Source: Candidatus Poribacteria bacterium
Lineage (GTDB): Bacteria > Poribacteria > DTPJ01 > WJIO01
DNA: 32,507 nt
Reading direction: 5' to 3'
NCBI GenBank assembly: GCA_014730235.1
Contig: WJIO01000394.1
Location: forward strand, 1 to 32,507
Shown here: positions 8,193 through 15,818 of the stretch, in pieces
How positions within the stretch are numbered: position 1 is the first letter of the stretch
Layout: every line of letters begins with the position of its first letter
Notes under the pieces: model-generated
Seen by the model: the letters and a program-made list of their open reading frames with translations, nothing else
The model's database searches: none
Told to the model about the DNA's origin: nothing
Program-made: the position numbers and the translations under genes

Positions 8193-8846
8193 CTAAAATT
8201 TTGTTTCAGCCCATGATATTATATGTTTATTTATAACACTTACAGCTTTTTCTACCTCTATTTCCTTATCTTCAAAGAATTTGAAATCATCAATCCAGAA
8301 ATCCACATCTGACTGGGCTATGCACAAACCGACCCGGACTTCTTCAAGCCAATTTTTATATTCCAGAACAAACGAATGCTTGTATTCCTTCCATTCTAGG
8401 CTGTCAAGGATTATGGTTTCGGTATAAAATCCAGGCCATTCTTCATCCGGGGATTGTATGCTTATATCTACCTTCCGGCTTTGCCCTTGATTACTATCAA
8501 TTTTTGCCCAGAAGGATACAGTATAAGTCTTGTCATTTTCTGCTGGCACAAATTCATGTCTTAGTTTGGTATGGCATGGAATACCTGTGGATACCAAGCT
8601 GATAACTTTCAGACTATTACCACCTGTATGAGCTATGGAATCATCTGCTTCAAAGCGATACTCGCTTTCGTCGCATCCTCAGCCACCTTTTTCCAATGCC
8701 CATTCCTTCGCCTCCTGACCGACTTCATCATCTTCAAAATTGCTGTTTAACAGACGATTTTCCCCTAATTCCCATGTATAGCCTGAATTAGTCAGGTATA
8801 ATGGGATAAGGATAAATGTCAATATCAATACAATATACTTTTTCAT
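8193..8846 (-). CDS. Secreted carbohydrate-binding-like protein interrupted by an in-frame TGA
   Basis: The frame opens with ATG at 8846 (ribosome site AGGA seven bases upstream), a signal peptide (MKKYIVLILTFILIPLYL), and runs for 217 codons with one TGA at 8679-8681 (codon 56). Sequence on both sides reads as one CBM4/9-like beta-sandwich: LLNSNFED, then AHTGGNSLKV, TYTVSFWAKID and VDFWIDDFKF. The gene follows the kinase stop by 15 nt and seems to be the last of that operon. The TGA may be a nonsense mutation of Trp (TGG), a sequencing error, or recoded selenocysteine. A 7-bp hairpin just after it suits the last idea. An internal start at 8597 would give only a 134-residue fragment without a signal peptide. 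Binding target unknown. Confidence 0.65.
8652..8668 (-). promoter_or_regulatory. SECIS-like hairpin just downstream of the in-frame TGA
   Basis: On the minus strand, AAAGCGA - GTA - TCGCTTT forms a perfect 7-bp stem with a three-base loop that begins with G. The loop starts 17 nt after the TGA. Three more pairs (TGC with GCA) can form below an internal loop. Bacterial SECIS elements are short stem-loops right after the UGA with a G at the start of the apical loop, so the form fits. There is no bulged U as in the E. coli fdhF element. It may also be chance. Confidence 0.3.
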
Positions 8847-8861
8847 TCTATATTCCTGATC

Positions 8862-10862
8862 TTACACAATCTCAGTTGCTGGTAAGTAAATATTAAACGT
8901 CGTGCCTTTGTTTACCTGGGATTCAACTTCCATATATCCTTTATGGTTTTTTATGATTGAATAACATACGGCCAATCCCAGACCACTTCCGGTTTGTTTT
9001 GTGGTGAAATATGGCTCAAATATCTTATCAATATACTGCTCAGGTATACCTATGCCTTCATCTTGTAGAGATATTTTAATATACCTGTCATTCTCCAGAG
9101 GAAGATCGTGATCACCTTTTAATTCAATATTTTCTGTAAATACTTTAAATATCCCACCATCGGGCATGGCCTGTTTTGCATTTATGGTCAGATTGCTCAT
9201 AACCTGCTGAATTTGTCCCGGATCAGCTTCTATGGACCATATATCATCAGTCAGATAATAAACAGGTGAGACATTAGAACCGCTTAAAGCCAGATTTACC
9301 GATTCTTCAAGTAAATCATTTATGTATATATTTTGCTTAATGGGAAGTCCGCCCTTAGAAAATGTCAACAGTCTTTTGGTTAAAGATTGAGCACTTATGG
9401 ATGCTCTTTCTGCTTTGGTAAGTCTGTCCAGAGCCTTTTCTGTAGATTTATTTGATTCAATATAGTAACTGGCCAGGGATATATTTCCCAGTATCCCGGC
9501 CAAGTAATTATTGAAATCATGGGCGATTCCACCGGCAAGAACACCGATGGATTCCAGCCTTTCGACTTTCTGTATCTCTTTCTCCAATTTCAGCTTTTCT
9601 GTTACATCCCGAAAAACCAGAACAACACCGACTAGACTTCCATCATTGTGGAATATTGGGGCGCCGCTATCGGCAACTATTCTTTCTGTACCATCTTTTG
9701 AAATGAGGATCGTATTTTCAAAAACATTAACGATCTTACCTGTCTCTATAACTTCATATACCGGATTATCACAGACATCCCTCTGATTTTCGCTTTTAAT
9801 ATGAAATATATCATCCAGTTCTTTTCCGACAGCCTCTTCAGTTTTCCATCCGGTTAATTTTTCCGCAATACCATTCATCAAAACCACTTTGCAGTCTAAA
9901 TCTGTTGCAATTACACCATCACCGATGGATCTGAGTGTTACAGCTAACCTTTCCCGCTCATCCAGAATTTCATCTTCCATTTGTTTTCGCTCTATGGCTG
10001 AAGCCAGGACATTGGCAACGGATTGGAGAAAATTAAGGTCATTTCTGGTAAATTCTCGCTTTTGAGTATAGTATAACCCAAGTATGCCGTAAATTTTCGC
10101 GTGGTCTTTAACTACTATATTCACACCGCTCGATATATCATATTCAGCAAAAGGATCGGGTATATCCATATTGTGTAAAATATTATCCCCGAAATTAAAT
10201 GACAAAGGTGTATACAAAAGGAAATCATAACCTTTTCCTTTTGCTTCATCTATATTAATTTCCAGATTATCAGACTCCCAACCCATGCCATATTCAAGTG
10301 AAAATACTGATTTATGCTTTATAAATTTGAAAAAGCCCAAATATTCAGCTTTCATTGTCTGAGAAATAAGCTCAATTATATGACGGGTTAAGGTAGGAAT
10401 ATCAGTTCCTGATAAAGCTAACTGACCTGATTCGGCAATGGCTTCATTCTGTTGTGATCTGATTTTTACCTCTGTTTGAGCGGCTTTTAATCTCAACATG
10501 GCATCCACCCTGGCCAGAAGTTCCTTATTGGAAATTGGCCTGGCAATATAGCCATCTGCACCTATTTCCAAACCATTGGCCTGGGCTTCAGAGGATGTTC
10601 TCAGGCTGGAAAGAAGTATTACATAGGTTTCTGAAAAGCGGGGAGCAGATTTAATTTGTTTACATAGCTCAAAGCCATCTTCATCAGGTAAAATAACGTC
10701 CAAAAGTATGAGGTCTGGTTCATATTCTTCAAGTATTTTCATACATCCCTGACCATTTTTCGCTCCCAAAACCTCATGGCCAGCATTTTTCAATATTCTC
10801 AACATACCGTTAAGCAAATGATTATCATCGTCAACAGCAAGTATTTTAGCTTTGTGGCTCAT
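8862..10862 (-). CDS. Receiver-GAF-PAS-histidine kinase hybrid sensor
   Basis: From the preferred ATG at 10862 (GAGG and AGGA just upstream) the protein has 666 residues. An in-frame start at 10898 would add 12 residues and overlap the upstream gene. Domains in order: receiver (about 6-125, phosphoacceptor Asp55 in LILLDVILPDEDG); GAF-like (about 140-295); PAS (about 305-425, GDGVIATDLDCKVVLMNG); dimerisation/phosphoacceptor domain with His448 in GGIAHDFNN; and HATPase (about 540-665, with NLTINAKQAM and GSGLGLAVCYSI). The AHDFNN type of H-box is common in NtrB-like kinases. It has no membrane segment, so it should be cytosolic and could take phosphate from the preceding hybrid kinase through its N-terminal receiver. 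No DNA-binding output domain is present in the operon. Confidence 0.9.
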   Translation of the reverse strand: MSHKAKILAVDDDNHLLNGMLRILKNAGHEVLGAKNGQGCMKILEEYEPDLILLDVILPDEDGFELCKQIKSAPRFSETYVILLSSLRTSSEAQANGLEIGADGYIARPISNKELLARVDAMLRLKAAQTEVKIRSQQNEAIAESGQLALSGTDIPTLTRHIIELISQTMKAEYLGFFKFIKHKSVFSLEYGMGWESDNLEINIDEAKGKGYDFLLYTPLSFNFGDNILHNMDIPDPFAEYDISSGVNIVVKDHAKIYGILGLYYTQKREFTRNDLNFLQSVANVLASAIERKQMEDEILDERERLAVTLRSIGDGVIATDLDCKVVLMNGIAEKLTGWKTEEAVGKELDDIFHIKSENQRDVCDNPVYEVIETGKIVNVFENTILISKDGTERIVADSGAPIFHNDGSLVGVVLVFRDVTEKLKLEKEIQKVERLESIGVLAGGIAHDFNNYLAGILGNISLASYYIESNKSTEKALDRLTKAERASISAQSLTKRLLTFSKGGLPIKQNIYINDLLEESVNLALSGSNVSPVYYLTDDIWSIEADPGQIQQVMSNLTINAKQAMPDGGIFKVFTENIELKGDHDLPLENDRYIKISLQDEGIGIPEQYIDKIFEPYFTTKQTGSGLGLAVCYSIIKNHKGYMEVESQVNKGTTFNIYLPATEIV

Positions 10863-10872
10863 ATTCCTTGCC

Positions 10873-12522
10873 TCATTCAGAATCACTTTGATTGACAATT
10901 ATTGAAGACCACTTCTCAATAACTTCCTTTAGGTCTTCCTTATTAACTGGTTTACTGACAAAATCCTGCATTCCTGCTTCGAAACATTGATTGTTATCTT
11001 CTGCTGCAATACTGGCGGTCATGGCCAATATCACCGGTTGTTTTTCCTCAGGACAATTACTGCGTATATGTCTTGTAGCTTCCAGACCATTCATTTCTGG
11101 CATGTGAATATCCATGAGTATCAGGTTATATTCTTTTTTTTCTATTAAATCCAGGACTTCTTTTCCGTTACTCGCTGCATCTGCCTGATAACCCAGCTTT
11201 TCCAGAAGTCTTAATCCCAGTTTCTGGTTGATTTTACTATCGTCAGCAAGGAGTATTTTTATGTCTTGTATTTGTTGTTTAATAATATCCTGGTTTTGCG
11301 GTTGTTTTACCGGTTGCTGATAATTTTCAGGTAATGGTAATGTAAAATGAAACGTGGAACCTTTACCAACTTCGCTTTCCACCCATATTCTGCCTTTATG
11401 GCCCTCAACTATTCTTGCAGCAATTACAAGTCCCAAACCTGTGCTTTTTTCTCCTGCTGTACTCTTTACGCTTGTTTTTACAAAGGGTTTAAACAGCTTT
11501 TCAATATCTTCATCAGGTATCCCCTGCCCTTGGTCCTTAACGGATATAATAATTTCTTCTTCTTTTTTATCTATTTTAACTAATACTCTGGTCTCCGGGT
11601 GTGAGTATTTGATGGCGTTGCTTATCAGGTTATTAAGAACCTGTTCAATTTTACCCGGATCAATCTCCATCTCAGGTATTTCCTCAGCACTTTGAAAATC
11701 AAGCTCTATCTGTTTTCTGGAGGCCAGAATTTTATTGAGAGATATGTTTTTAGATATTAGTTCAACGATATTTGTTGGCTTTGTATTAAGCTGTAAATTC
11801 CCGGATTCTATCTTGGTGATATCCAGAAGTTCTTCCACCATTTGCAGCATAAACTGGCTTGAGGACTTAATGGTTGATAAGAATTCCGAATGTTCATCAC
11901 TTAAAACATTAGATGCTTCGTCCAGAACAAAATCGCTATACATCATTATAACGCCAAGGGGATTACGAAGGTCGTGGGCAGCCATACCCAGGAACTGGTT
12001 TTTCAACTCATTAAGCCGTTCAAGTTGTATGTTCTTTTTTGTTAATTCCCGCTGCATATTGACAAGTTCGTTATTCAAGCGGCTAATCTCATCAAATAGA
12101 GGATTTTCATCTTTTGCTTCCGACTGGGAAGTCCTGATCTGGTCTTTCACTGCGACACGAAGGGCATTTACCTGTTCATTGCTAATCTTCATAAGCTCTT
12201 CATATAGGGTAAGAACTTCGGTGCTGTTTCTTGCGCCTACAATCAAAATACTATCATTAACAACAACTCCGGCAAAATGAAGGGCTGTAATCTGTCCCGC
12301 AATATTAACATTTAGTTCCCAGTCAAACACCGCTTCACTTTGTCTTATCTCTTCAAGAAATTTGAGACATTTACCAAGGCTGTCCTGACTGACCATGAAG
12401 GTAATGGATTTACCATATATGGATTCATCGGTTATACCAAATTTATCCATTATAATCTTTTGAACTTCACCATCATGGGTGCAAAGAATAGCAATTCCGG
12501 GGGTTTTCTTATCTTCATTCAT
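10873..12522 (-). CDS. Hybrid histidine kinase (sensor, HisKA, HATPase, receiver)
   Basis: The 549-residue cytosolic protein has an N-terminal PAS-like sensor region (about 5-115), a coiled coil (about 140-178), HisKA with His183 in AAHDLRNPLG, HATPase (N-box NLISNAIKYSH at about 298-308, DQGQGIPDED, STGLGLVIA) and a C-terminal receiver (about 420-540, acceptor Asp471 in LILMDIHMPEMNG, conserved Lys in FVSKPVN). It starts one base after the stop of the cobalamin-binding gene, which indicates tight coupling. I infer that the B12 protein supplies or modulates its input, because the operon order matches sensor then kinase. The stop lies 10 nt upstream of the next gene's preferred start. Confidence 0.93.
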   Translation of the reverse strand: MNEDKKTPGIAILCTHDGEVQKIIMDKFGITDESIYGKSITFMVSQDSLGKCLKFLEEIRQSEAVFDWELNVNIAGQITALHFAGVVVNDSILIVGARNSTEVLTLYEELMKISNEQVNALRVAVKDQIRTSQSEAKDENPLFDEISRLNNELVNMQRELTKKNIQLERLNELKNQFLGMAAHDLRNPLGVIMMYSDFVLDEASNVLSDEHSEFLSTIKSSSQFMLQMVEELLDITKIESGNLQLNTKPTNIVELISKNISLNKILASRKQIELDFQSAEEIPEMEIDPGKIEQVLNNLISNAIKYSHPETRVLVKIDKKEEEIIISVKDQGQGIPDEDIEKLFKPFVKTSVKSTAGEKSTGLGLVIAARIVEGHKGRIWVESEVGKGSTFHFTLPLPENYQQPVKQPQNQDIIKQQIQDIKILLADDSKINQKLGLRLLEKLGYQADAASNGKEVLDLIEKKEYNLILMDIHMPEMNGLEATRHIRSNCPEEKQPVILAMTASIAAEDNNQCFEAGMQDFVSKPVNKEDLKEVIEKWSSIIVNQSDSE

Positions 12523-12523
12523 T

Positions 12524-13591
12524 TTAATTCTGTTCTGATACTAATGCGCTTGCGGTTGCTATGGCTTCCTGAGCATCTCTGGCATATCCGTCTGCGCCGA
12601 CTTGCTTCCATAGATCTGATGCTGCGTTGAAGGGATAACCACCAACCATAATCTTTACATTGCTTCCTATATCCGAAGCCCGAACAGCCTCTATAATATT
12701 ATTTAGCATATTCATATGAAAGGTAATTGTAACCGATAGCCCCAGTATATCTGCTTCCTGATCCCTTGTAGTCTGTAGTATGCTTTGAATAGGGGTATTA
12801 GCTCCCAGGTAATATGTATCCCAACCCTCCATCTCGAAGAAATCGGCTACCATTCGGATGCCAATTTCGTGAAGTTCCTCACCAACGCATGCCCCGACAA
12901 ATTTAAGCCCGTTTTTATCTGTGGAAAATATATAGGGATAAAGCTGAGACATAATAAGCTGAGTCGCCGCTGTGCAGTAGTGTTCCTGGGCAACGGTTAT
13001 CTTATTCGTCTGCCATAGCCTTCCTATTTCATGTTGAGACCTCTGGAAAACATACATATATATGTTTTTAATGCTGGTTCCATTTTCGACAGCTTTAATT
13101 ATCATCTGGCTTGCGTCATTGCGATCACCTTTTAGCAGAGCATCAAGGTATTTTTTTGCCAGATCGGATAAGGGCATTTCATCCTCTATAAAGGATGGGA
13201 TTGATGATGGTAATTTTGATATTTGTTGAATACCTGAATCCAGGTAAGGTAAACTTATGGATTTATATTCATCTGGCAAAAATTTATTGAGGGTATCCCG
13301 GATACACTTAAAAGTCATGGGTAATCCTTCATCAGGGAATTTCAATTCCGTAAAAAGCACTTTTAACCATGCGATATAATCCATCAGGAGTGACTGGTTT
13401 GAATTGGATATTGCCTCGTTGATATAGGAAAGATGATATTTAACGTCCTTTATGCTTCTGCGATATCCCGCTTCACCGTATTTTTCCCATATTTCCGGCT
13501 GCAATTCATACTGATGCTTAACTGATTCTTCCGCTATTTCATCACTTCGTTCTTCTATAAAATCAACACAATCCTTTACGACTTTATTCAT
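12524..13591 (-). CDS. Cobalamin-binding protein with CarH-type Wx9EH motif
   Basis: The start at 13591 is chosen because GGAGG lies seven bases upstream; an earlier in-frame start at 13621 has no such site. The 355-residue protein has an alpha-helical N-terminal domain of unknown type (1-130), a four-helix B12 cap (about 140-225) and a Rossmann-like B12-binding domain (about 228-350). The cap carries Trp193, nine residues, then Glu203-His204, the Wx9EH motif known from adenosylcobalamin photoreceptors of the CarH/LitR type. The binding loop is ELHEIG (a Glu variant of DxHxxG, His241 as candidate cobalt ligand), followed by GLSVT and VGGYPF. There is no MerR DNA-binding domain. Its place at the head of a kinase operon suggests it senses B12 or light for the kinases. 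A B12-dependent enzyme subunit is the alternative. Confidence 0.85.
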   Translation of the reverse strand: MNKVVKDCVDFIEERSDEIAEESVKHQYELQPEIWEKYGEAGYRRSIKDVKYHLSYINEAISNSNQSLLMDYIAWLKVLFTELKFPDEGLPMTFKCIRDTLNKFLPDEYKSISLPYLDSGIQQISKLPSSIPSFIEDEMPLSDLAKKYLDALLKGDRNDASQMIIKAVENGTSIKNIYMYVFQRSQHEIGRLWQTNKITVAQEHYCTAATQLIMSQLYPYIFSTDKNGLKFVGACVGEELHEIGIRMVADFFEMEGWDTYYLGANTPIQSILQTTRDQEADILGLSVTITFHMNMLNNIIEAVRASDIGSNVKIMVGGYPFNAASDLWKQVGADGYARDAQEAIATASALVSEQN

Positions 13592-13651
13592 GAGAGTACC
13601 TCCAAAAATATTATAAAACAATTGTTTATTTATCGCACTCTCCCTATATAT

Positions 13652-13770
13652 AATCGTTAAAAAATGAGGCTCTTCCGAATTGAGTGTGGAAATAATTTAA
13701 AAAATTTCTAAGCATGTCATTACTGCGAAAGCAGGAATGACAACTAAATTATATCCATTTTTTAACGATT
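13652..13770. repeat. Inverted-repeat element enclosing a TCATTCCTGC-type hairpin
   Basis: AATCGTTAAAAAATG (13652-13666) is exactly complementary to CATTTTTTAACGATT (13756-13770). Inside are GGCTCTTCCGAATTGAGTGT (13669-13688), like the terminal repeat of the 216-346 and 27757-28015 elements, and a hairpin at 13715-13742 (TGTCATTACTGC / GCAGGAATGACA, one mismatch, loop GAAA). Confidence 0.65.
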
Positions 13771-13826
13771 ACTTATATATGAATTTTATCAGACTTTCGT
13801 TTAATTATCAATAAGCAAGTTTAACC

Positions 13827-13960
13827 GGAACCTGTCCCAAATTAGTAGGTTAAGATTTTTGGTTATTTTGGCTTAAGTTTGGAAATATTAAAACGGAAAG
13901 GCTCAGCAGGAGCTTCGCTCTCCCGAATTGTGAATAACCTACTAATTTGGAACAGATTCC
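13827..13960. repeat. 134-bp MITE-like element with 26-bp terminal inverted repeats
   Basis: The left arm 13827-13852 and right arm 13935-13960 are complementary over 26 positions with two mismatches; both contain CCAAATTAGTAGGTTA or its complement. The core has no reading frame. It sits just upstream of the aldolase promoter. Confidence 0.7.
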
Positions 13961-14059: not shown

Positions 14060-14824
14060 ATGGAAAATCACATGAAATCAAAGCTTAAGGCAGGAAAAAC
14101 TGTTATAGGTTCGTTTTTAAAGATTACAGATCCAGCGGTTATAGAGATAATGGGAAGGGCTGGTTTTGATTTCGGAATAATTGATATGGAACACGGCCCT
14201 ATTGGCTATGAAACTGCTCAAAATCTTATCCGGGCGGCTGAAGTTGCGGGTATATGTCCTATTATCCGGGTTAGTGAAAACGATCCGGTATGTATTTTGC
14301 GCGCCCTTGATATAGGTGCTCAGGGAGTGGAAGTTCCCCAGATACGCAGCGCGAAGGATGCAAAGAAAACCGCTGAATCAGCCAGGTATTTCCCGGAGGG
14401 TAAAAGAGGGGTTTGTAGATACGTCAGAGCAGCCAGGTATTCTTCAATGGAACGTCAGGAATATTTCAGGAAGGCCAACGAAAGTGTTTTAACTATAGTA
14501 CATCTTGAAGGTATTGAAGCCATTGAAAACCTGGACAGCATAATGTCAGTTGATGGTGTAGATATCCTGTTTATCGGGCCTTATGATTTATCTCAATCGG
14601 TAGGAGTTCCCGGTCAGGTTTCCCATCCCTCAGTTATCGAGCAAATGGAAAAAGTAATAACCAGGGCCAAAGACGCAGATAAAATTGTTGGTACATTTGC
14701 TGATGATATATCAGCGGCTAAACGATGGCTGGATGTCGGGGTTATGTATGTGGCAATTTCTGTTGATGTGGGTATACTTTATGACGCTTGCAGGAATATG
14801 GTAACTGGTCTAGGATTGGAATAA
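14060..14824 (+). CDS. HpcH/HpaI aldolase family protein
   Basis: The 254-residue protein matches the class II (metal-dependent) pyruvate aldolases such as 2-dehydro-3-deoxyglucarate and 4-hydroxy-2-oxoheptanedioate aldolases. Motifs: FGIIDMEHGPI with the conserved Glu-His, ILRALDIGAQGVEVPQI, the metal-ligand glutamate in VHLEGIEAI, and DILFIGPYDLSQSVG. These enzymes reversibly split 2-keto-3-deoxy acids to pyruvate and an aldehyde in the cytosol. The ATG start has GGAG upstream. It stands alone on this strand, and its stop overlaps the DUF72 gene end by 15 nt on the opposite strand. The exact substrate cannot be assigned. Confidence 0.9.
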   Translation: MENHMKSKLKAGKTVIGSFLKITDPAVIEIMGRAGFDFGIIDMEHGPIGYETAQNLIRAAEVAGICPIIRVSENDPVCILRALDIGAQGVEVPQIRSAKDAKKTAESARYFPEGKRGVCRYVRAARYSSMERQEYFRKANESVLTIVHLEGIEAIENLDSIMSVDGVDILFIGPYDLSQSVGVPGQVSHPSVIEQMEKVITRAKDADKIVGTFADDISAAKRWLDVGVMYVAISVDVGILYDACRNMVTGLGLE

Positions 14825-15592
14825 ATCAGGTTGCAAAATGTCCTGCATATCTTTTGCATTTTTAGCGGCATGACCGGCATGACAGTTATTAAACATTAAA
14901 TATGTATCCCGGGTTGATACAGCCAGTTCCTTGATTTTAGGAACCCACTGTTGGATTTCTTCTTCTGAATAAAGGTAATTATATCTTTCAGATGAATCAC
15001 CTTCCCACCATTTTTCAGCATTTCTGCCATGAAACCTTACATAACCAATGCTGGATGTAACAGCTAATTCTGGTGGGATCAGACCGGGCAAATCCGGTTC
15101 ATCTACAGCACAGTAAGACATATCCAGACTTTTTAGAAAATCAAAGATAGGTTCTGAAATCCACGAATTATGTCTGAATTCCACTATTAAAGGATAATTT
15201 GTCAACCGATCTTTACAATTACTTAAATACCTTCTGTTATTTTCGGTATTTTTAAAAGACCAGGGAAATTGCAGGAGTAGCCCACCAAATTTCTTTGCTT
15301 CTATCAGGGGATTTATGGCTTTTTCAAACTCATCAAAGACTGATTTATTATCCTCTCTTTCATGAGTCATATTTTTGTTGGCTTTTACCGTAAAAAGGAA
15401 ATCTTTGGGAGTTTTTCCCGCCATTCGGGCAAAGGATTCAGGTTTAGGGATGCCATAATAGGTAGAGTTAATTTCTACTACTTTGAAAAACTGTGCATAA
15501 TATTCCAACATCTGATTGTTAGAGATATCATCAGGATAAAAATTTCCCTTCCAATCTCTAAAGCTGTATCCTGATGTACCTATATGGATCAT
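14810..15592 (-). CDS. DUF72 family protein (YecE-like)
   Basis: The 260-residue protein has the DUF72 hallmarks: IGTSGYSFRDWKG at the N-terminus, VEINSTYYG, FLFTVKANKNMTH, GGLLLQFPWSF, EFRHNSW, YVRFHGRN and a late MFNNCHAGHAAKNA. The fold is a TIM-barrel-like domain whose biochemical role is not established. I place the start at the ATG at 15592; the reading frame continues upstream through both tRNA genes, but that part is only translated tRNA sequence. No ribosome site is present in the 17 nt between the tRNA 3' end and the ATG, which is unusual. It is probably cotranscribed with the tRNAs. Confidence 0.9.
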   Translation of the reverse strand: MIHIGTSGYSFRDWKGNFYPDDISNNQMLEYYAQFFKVVEINSTYYGIPKPESFARMAGKTPKDFLFTVKANKNMTHEREDNKSVFDEFEKAINPLIEAKKFGGLLLQFPWSFKNTENNRRYLSNCKDRLTNYPLIVEFRHNSWISEPIFDFLKSLDMSYCAVDEPDLPGLIPPELAVTSSIGYVRFHGRNAEKWWEGDSSERYNYLYSEEEIQQWVPKIKELAVSTRDTYLMFNNCHAGHAAKNAKDMQDILQPDLFQS

Positions 15593-15609
15593 GATTTTGA
15601 CTTGAAAAA

Positions 15610-15684
15610 TGGTGGGGCGTACTGGATTTGAACCAGTGACATCCACCGTGTGAGGATGGCGCTCTACCGCTGAGCTAACGCCCC
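15610..15684 (-). tRNA. tRNA-Val (anticodon CAC)
   Basis: The cloverleaf can be folded by eye: acceptor GGGGCGT / ACGCCCC, D stem GCTC / GAGC, anticodon stem CCATC / GGTGG around loop CTCACAC (anticodon CAC), T stem ACTGG / CCAGT around TTCAAAT, discriminator A and an encoded CCA end (15610-15612). Confidence 0.93.
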
Positions 15685-15711
15685 CTGGAACGGAATGTTT
15701 TAAAAATAAAT

Positions 15712-15787
15712 TGGTGGGCCTAGTAGGATTTGAACCTACGACCTGCCGGTTATGAGCCGGAGGCTCTACCAACTGAGCTATAGGCCC
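15712..15787 (-). tRNA. tRNA with anticodon CAT (elongator Met or Ile2)
   Basis: Acceptor GGGCCTA / TAGGCCC, D stem GCTC / GAGC, anticodon loop CTCATAA (anticodon CAT), T stem GTAGG / CCTAC with TTCAAAT, and an encoded CCA. A paired G1-C72 end rules out the initiator. C4-G69 and C5-G68 pairs and the GGCTCATAACC loop context resemble tRNA-Ile2, whose C34 is changed to lysidine, so Ile2 is at least as likely as Met. Confidence 0.9.
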
Positions 15788-15818
15788 ACCACTAACCATT
15801 AATTATATTACGAAATTA

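Follow-up and report, generated by a model that had tools for sequence, protein, structure and literature searches.

A photocobilin-like sensor encoded beside a hybrid histidine kinase in Candidatus Poribacteria, and its conserved pairing in other phyla

In the stretch of Candidatus Poribacteria DNA analyzed here (the window; all 32,507 nucleotides of contig WJIO01000394.1), a B12-binding protein is encoded directly ahead of two histidine kinases, which raises the question of what this protein senses and to which partner it passes the signal. A preliminary description had taken the three genes for an operon that couples a CarH-type B12 module to a kinase relay instead of to a MerR DNA-binding domain. 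The gene layout agrees with this: all three genes lie head to tail on the minus strand (Table 1), a single base (12523) lies between the gene 1 stop codon and the gene 2 ATG, the gap between genes 2 and 3 is 10 bases, and GGAGG precedes the start of gene 1. Pfam finds Phycobilisome (PF00502), B12-binding_2 and B12-binding domains, in that order, in gene 1 and the order HisKA-HATPase-receiver in gene 2, and its matches for genes 2 and 3 are those previously assigned; H183 of gene 2 is invariant. The reading that we favor, with a probability of roughly two in three, is that gene 1 is a photocobilin-type photoreceptor that switches its adjoining kinase in trans in response to light, the final output lying elsewhere.

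Table 1. Features of the sensor-kinase locus, in window coordinates
Feature	Coordinates	Strand	Basis or location
Gene 1, photoglobin plus B12-binding photoreceptor-like sensor, 355 aa	12524..13591	-	Pfam; model pLDDT 95.3
Gene 1 photoglobin (phycobiliprotein-like globin) domain, residues 1-127	13211..13591	-	PF00502; SasPcob profile match; fold; conservation
D49 codon	13445-13447	-	Within gene 1 photoglobin
W75 codon	13367-13369	-	Within gene 1 photoglobin
Gene 1 four-helix cap (B12-binding_2)	12941..13159	-	PF02607; W193, E203, H204 kept in 88/88
W193 codon	13013-13015	-	Gene 1 cap
E203-H204 codons	12980-12985	-	Gene 1 cap
Gene 1 Rossmann B12-binding domain	12560..12904	-	PF02310; Z 26.6, 26.5 vs photocobilins (residues 139-355)
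Cobalt-ligand His241 codon	12869-12871	-	Gene 1 Rossmann domain
E238 codon	12878-12880	-	Gene 1 Rossmann domain
Gene 2, hybrid histidine kinase, 549 aa, phospho-acceptor His183	10873..12522	-	Pfam HisKA, HATPase_c, Response_reg; model
Gene 2 putative PAS-like N-terminal domain, residues 1-100	12223..12522	-	Conserved beside sensor; secondary structure order
Gene 3, receiver-GAF-PAS-HisKA-HATPase kinase, 667 aa (ATG 10862)	8862..10862	-	Pfam; sequence

Scanned with an alignment of five sequences, the GTDB genomes yielded 245 relatives of gene 1, and we surveyed the best 80 loci, those nearest to the query; gene calls in this survey were mechanical, and many of the genomes are incomplete MAGs. 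These best 80 loci come from Anaerolineae and other Chloroflexota, Desulfobacterota, Bacteroidota, heliobacteria, Paenibacillus, Acidobacteria, Verrucomicrobia, Gamma- and Alphaproteobacteria, Spirochaetales and a Lokiarchaeota MAG.

The N-terminal region of gene 1, which had been described as a unique helical domain, is instead a photoglobin. Its match to PF00502 is above the cut-off (6e-7), and 22 of 30 relatives match the same family independently; a profile built from those 30 finds the globin domain of SasPcob (8j2w, 4.6e-8) along with many phycobiliproteins. The AlphaFold2 model of gene 1 (40 sequences) has the high mean pLDDT given in Table 1, and its residues 1-127 match the allophycocyanin fold with a Z score of 18.8 and an rmsd of 1.8. 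In the profile alignment, with a SasPcob chain offset of 6 derived from the W-EH motif, whose Trp at chain position 55 is W61 in PMC10979010, D49 aligns with D270 of SasPcob, a contact of biliverdin rings A-C, and W75 aligns with W296, a contact of both ring D and the corrin (PMC10979010). Among 88 relatives, D49 is kept in 86 and W75 in all. Given the photoglobin domain and both biliverdin-contact residues, we regard gene 1 as photocobilin-type, with the globin first. The CXQD motif of photoglobins (PMC10151467) reads SIKD in gene 1, so the photoglobin cysteine is missing; photocobilins likewise lack a covalently binding Cys (PMC10979010).

The photoglobin could alternatively be pigment-free here and serve as a structural or protein-contact domain, which is the role of the RsbR globin, leaving a sensor that responds to green or blue light alone through B12; we give this somewhat less than even odds. 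Related globins, that of RsbR among them, do not bind a tetrapyrrole, and this counts against a bilin in gene 1. PF01126 heme oxygenase was not found in the organism's own genome (91.6% complete), where a HutW match lies far below the cut-off and the two ABM genes are weak, so that neither HutW/ChuW nor a strong ABM gene was found there as a bilin source. PF01126 is present, in some cases marginally, in 9 of 75 distinct genomes that carry the cassette and missing in the other 66, and a bilin may for this reason be absent. One characterized photocobilin, AbDPcob, binds biliverdin poorly (PMC10979010). However, AbDPcob lacks the Asp, whereas D49 and W75 are nearly always kept among the relatives of gene 1, and some homologues adjoin a gene for heme oxygenase or for an IsdG-like ABM protein.

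In a Desulfomonile MAG, a heme oxygenase gene divergently adjoins the sensor (L045:6158-6745). A gene for an ABM-fold protein of roughly 100 aa adjoins the sensor in 18 of the 80 loci, 16 of these genes being codirectional with it and ending within about 60 bases, and every match to the ABM profile in the loci adjoins a sensor, including a weak remnant (L043). By sequence, the nearest solved relatives of these neighbors are TT1380 and the IsdG-family heme-degrading enzymes, whose catalytic triad is Asn-Trp-His (PMC5557675). The triad Trp and His are invariant in the ABM neighbors and the Asn is replaced by Ser in all 15 that we aligned, so heme degradation by these proteins is not assured. No such neighbor was found in our window. 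Sensors with and without the ABM neighbor also differ at position 48, which is Arg in 40 of 69 without it and in 0 of 19 with it (the latter have Gln, Glu or Ser), a difference that may reflect ancestry only; Cys46 is weakly associated with the neighbor (p 0.06, relatedness ignored). A fuller scheme, which we regard as doubtful, would have a widespread two-chromophore phosphorelay in which the photocobilin acts in trans through a PAS-like domain outside Pfam and draws its bilin from something other than canonical heme oxygenase: in aerobes the ABM protein, with Ser for Asn, would make or handle the bilin, and in anaerobes the linear tetrapyrrole would have another source.

The assignment of a CarH-type module to the remainder of gene 1 stands. 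Trp193, Glu203-His204 and the ELHEIG loop (E239-G244) are where they had been reported, and W193, E203-H204 and H241, the last of which is kept in 87 of 88 relatives, correspond to SasPcob W61, E71-H72 and H108. In fold, the photocobilins are closest (Table 1), and the superposition on CarH / LitR that had been called for gives matches to 5C8D and 3WHP with Z of about 20. Gene 1 thus shares the W, EH and His of the CarH / LitR adenosylcobalamin module, but where those proteins carry a MerR DNA-binding domain it has a photoglobin; it scores 50 against a cut-off of 400 bits with the CarH model, and we rejected the idea that it is itself a MerR-type CarH. CarH also has a His right after its Trp, whereas gene 1 shares with SasPcob a Gln at that position, and a CarH-like bis-His state is therefore not expected. 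The own genome has a BtuR-type adenosyltransferase (a PduO-type enzyme was not found there), and adenosylcobalamin can therefore be made.

Four motifs mark light-responsive B12 domains: GxxW, EH, GxxxP and GxxH (SignatureFinder, PMC11796333). Gene 1 has the first three (G190-W193, E203-H204 and G263-P267) and lacks GxxH, with E238-E239-L240-H241 (EELH) in its place; since Gly occupies position 238 in 69 of the 88 relatives, E238 is the unusual residue, and this altered motif weighs against a light sensor. The Glu two residues before His241, by comparison, which had been singled out as a notable replacement for the Asp of DxHxxG, is ordinary: the 88 relatives have 73 E and 15 D at that position, and the photocobilin loop motif is stated as E/DxH (PMC10979010). 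The EELH sequence is one of two observations consistent with a sensor that reads the level of adenosylcobalamin or the redox state of cobalamin, in which the binding or loss of adenosylcobalamin, not its photolysis, would change the kinase; the other is that many carriers are, by their record names, anaerobic or deep-habitat MAGs, for which light may be scarce. We nevertheless think this unlikely: light-responsive modules typically have the adenosyl-stacking Trp and the EH pair, both invariant here, phototrophic heliobacteria are among the carriers, and a plain B12 gauge would have little use for a bilin-type domain that retains its contact residues.

Coupling of this photocobilin-type sensor to a kinase, in place of MerR, is strongly supported. 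The gene directly downstream of the sensor matches gene 2 in 73 of the best 80 loci, four of these in the N-terminal part only; where the gene caller resolved the locus, this next gene mostly overlaps the sensor gene or begins tens of bases away. The remaining seven comprise one natural fusion of sensor and kinase and six other loci, two of them near a contig edge. We read the fusion, from sequence and matches, as photocobilin-coil-PAS-HK-REC-REC-HPt (1281 aa; L090, a Verrucomicrobiales genome), and a second, photocobilin-PAS-kinase fusion of 866 aa is encoded on the opposite strand of the same locus. Sensor and kinase distances are correlated across 66 pairs (r 0.41, against a maximum of 0.16 in 500 permutations, with shared ancestry uncontrolled). 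Azospirillum plasmids keep the pair and have a receiver gene immediately upstream of it. As for the three-gene order that the preliminary description proposed to look for, a receiver-containing third gene is found in about 23 of the 80 loci. A role for gene 1 as a corrinoid carrier in methyl transfer rather than as a sensor, which its best sub-threshold NCBIfam matches (methyltransferase corrinoid proteins) might suggest, can be dismissed as far-fetched, given a MtbC/MtgC-type score of 68.9 against a cut-off of 350 bits, invariant adenosyl-pocket residues, and a neighborhood not, as had been allowed for, mainly of corrinoid methyltransferases: the kinases adjoin in those 73 of 80 loci, and the 25 most frequent families of upstream genes include no methyltransferase.

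The part of the kinase that would receive the signal is probably its N-terminal domain, for which sequence searches gave no convincing match in Pfam or among solved structures; in a fold search with the gene 2 model, the kinase core filled the match list. The predicted secondary structure runs through two strands, helices, three strands and then a long helix, from which we infer that the domain is PAS-like. In two Adhaeribacter loci (L071, L088), the kinase core is gone while the N-terminal domain and coil still sit beside the sensor, suggesting that the sensor partners with that domain. Two further loci (L077, L101) have a sensor and no adjoining kinase, and the L101 sensor also lacks D49; these four belong to Adhaeribacter and Pontibacter, where the kinase is being lost. 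In a more distant relative on an Ilyobacter polytropus plasmid (L039), Asn replaces D49 and the sensor gene is overlapped by a GGDEF gene, not a kinase gene, implying that the output partner has been swapped between lineages.

In the mechanism that we propose, gene 1 would use H241 to bind adenosylcobalamin in the base-off/His-on mode, and W193 and E203-H204 would surround the adenosyl group. As in CarH and SasPcob, the Co-C bond would be cleaved by green or blue light, and a change at the E203-H204 helix could then remodel the sensor dimer. The photoglobin pocket, with D49 and W75, would lie against the corrin and probably hold a linear tetrapyrrole, which would add red to the range of light sensed. 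Acting in trans by way of the PAS-like domain and the coiled coil, the sensor would switch the next-encoded kinase in one direction or the other, and H183 would hand its phosphate to the receiver of the same kinase, the gene 3 receiver or both. The final output would be encoded elsewhere in the genome. Output domains vary among the loci (PAS, GGDEF, more kinases), so no single output is implied, and the outputs guessed at earlier, a secreted protein or the Bat operon downstream, find no support.

The secreted candidate is a CBM_4_9-like ORF (8196-8846, minus strand) separated from gene 3 by 15 bases. Its codon 56 (8679-8681) is an in-frame TGA, which may reflect decay, recoding or an assembly error; a paralogue with 49% identity is encoded elsewhere in the genome. 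On the other side of the locus, two long inverted repeats (13645-13777 and 13827-13960) lie between the sensor gene and a divergent HpcH/HpaI gene. Their arms, of 22 bp (91% complementary) and 26 bp (92%), are about 85 bases apart, and they are possibly remnants of small mobile elements. Further along, tRNA-Val and tRNA-Met genes (15610-15787, minus strand) overlap the start of a mechanically called DUF72 ORF (14810-15799), whose true start must accordingly be further in.

With its photoglobin N-terminus, gene 1 belongs to a class that is already published. The photoglobin family, as summarized in PMC10979010 and PMC10151467, couples a phycobiliprotein-like globin to a B12 domain, as gene 1 does, and was proposed as a light-sensing bundle (Schneider et al., 2022); the combination predicted in 2022 was solved in 2024 in SasPcob (8J2W/8J2X) and AbDPcob (8J2Y), which likewise join a photoglobin to a CarH-type B12 module (PMC10979010). 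All of the SasPcob W/EH/His and biliverdin-contact residues discussed above have counterparts in gene 1. The solved photocobilins place the B12 module before the globin, whereas gene 1 has the reverse order, and PMC10979010 mentions groups that carry their B12 domain at one end or the other. They are also either stand-alone or fused to a diguanylate cyclase, whereas the partner of gene 1 is a separate histidine kinase. The BBAG-2 globins, of the photoglobin lineage, are associated with B12 proteins and heme oxygenase, but their globin and B12 domain are encoded separately, in the context of bilin biosynthesis and with no kinase pairing (PMC10151467), unlike the fused, kinase-paired gene 1.

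Three features make the system worth following: how widely the cassette is spread, the unclassified partner domain of the kinase and the heme-degrading-type neighbors. The pairing poses the question of what the bilin pocket contains where canonical heme oxygenase is absent. Control of two-component signaling by B12 plus bilin would become directly testable with a photocobilin-kinase pair conserved across many phyla, heliobacteria and an archaeal MAG being among its carriers, and the pair could serve optogenetics.
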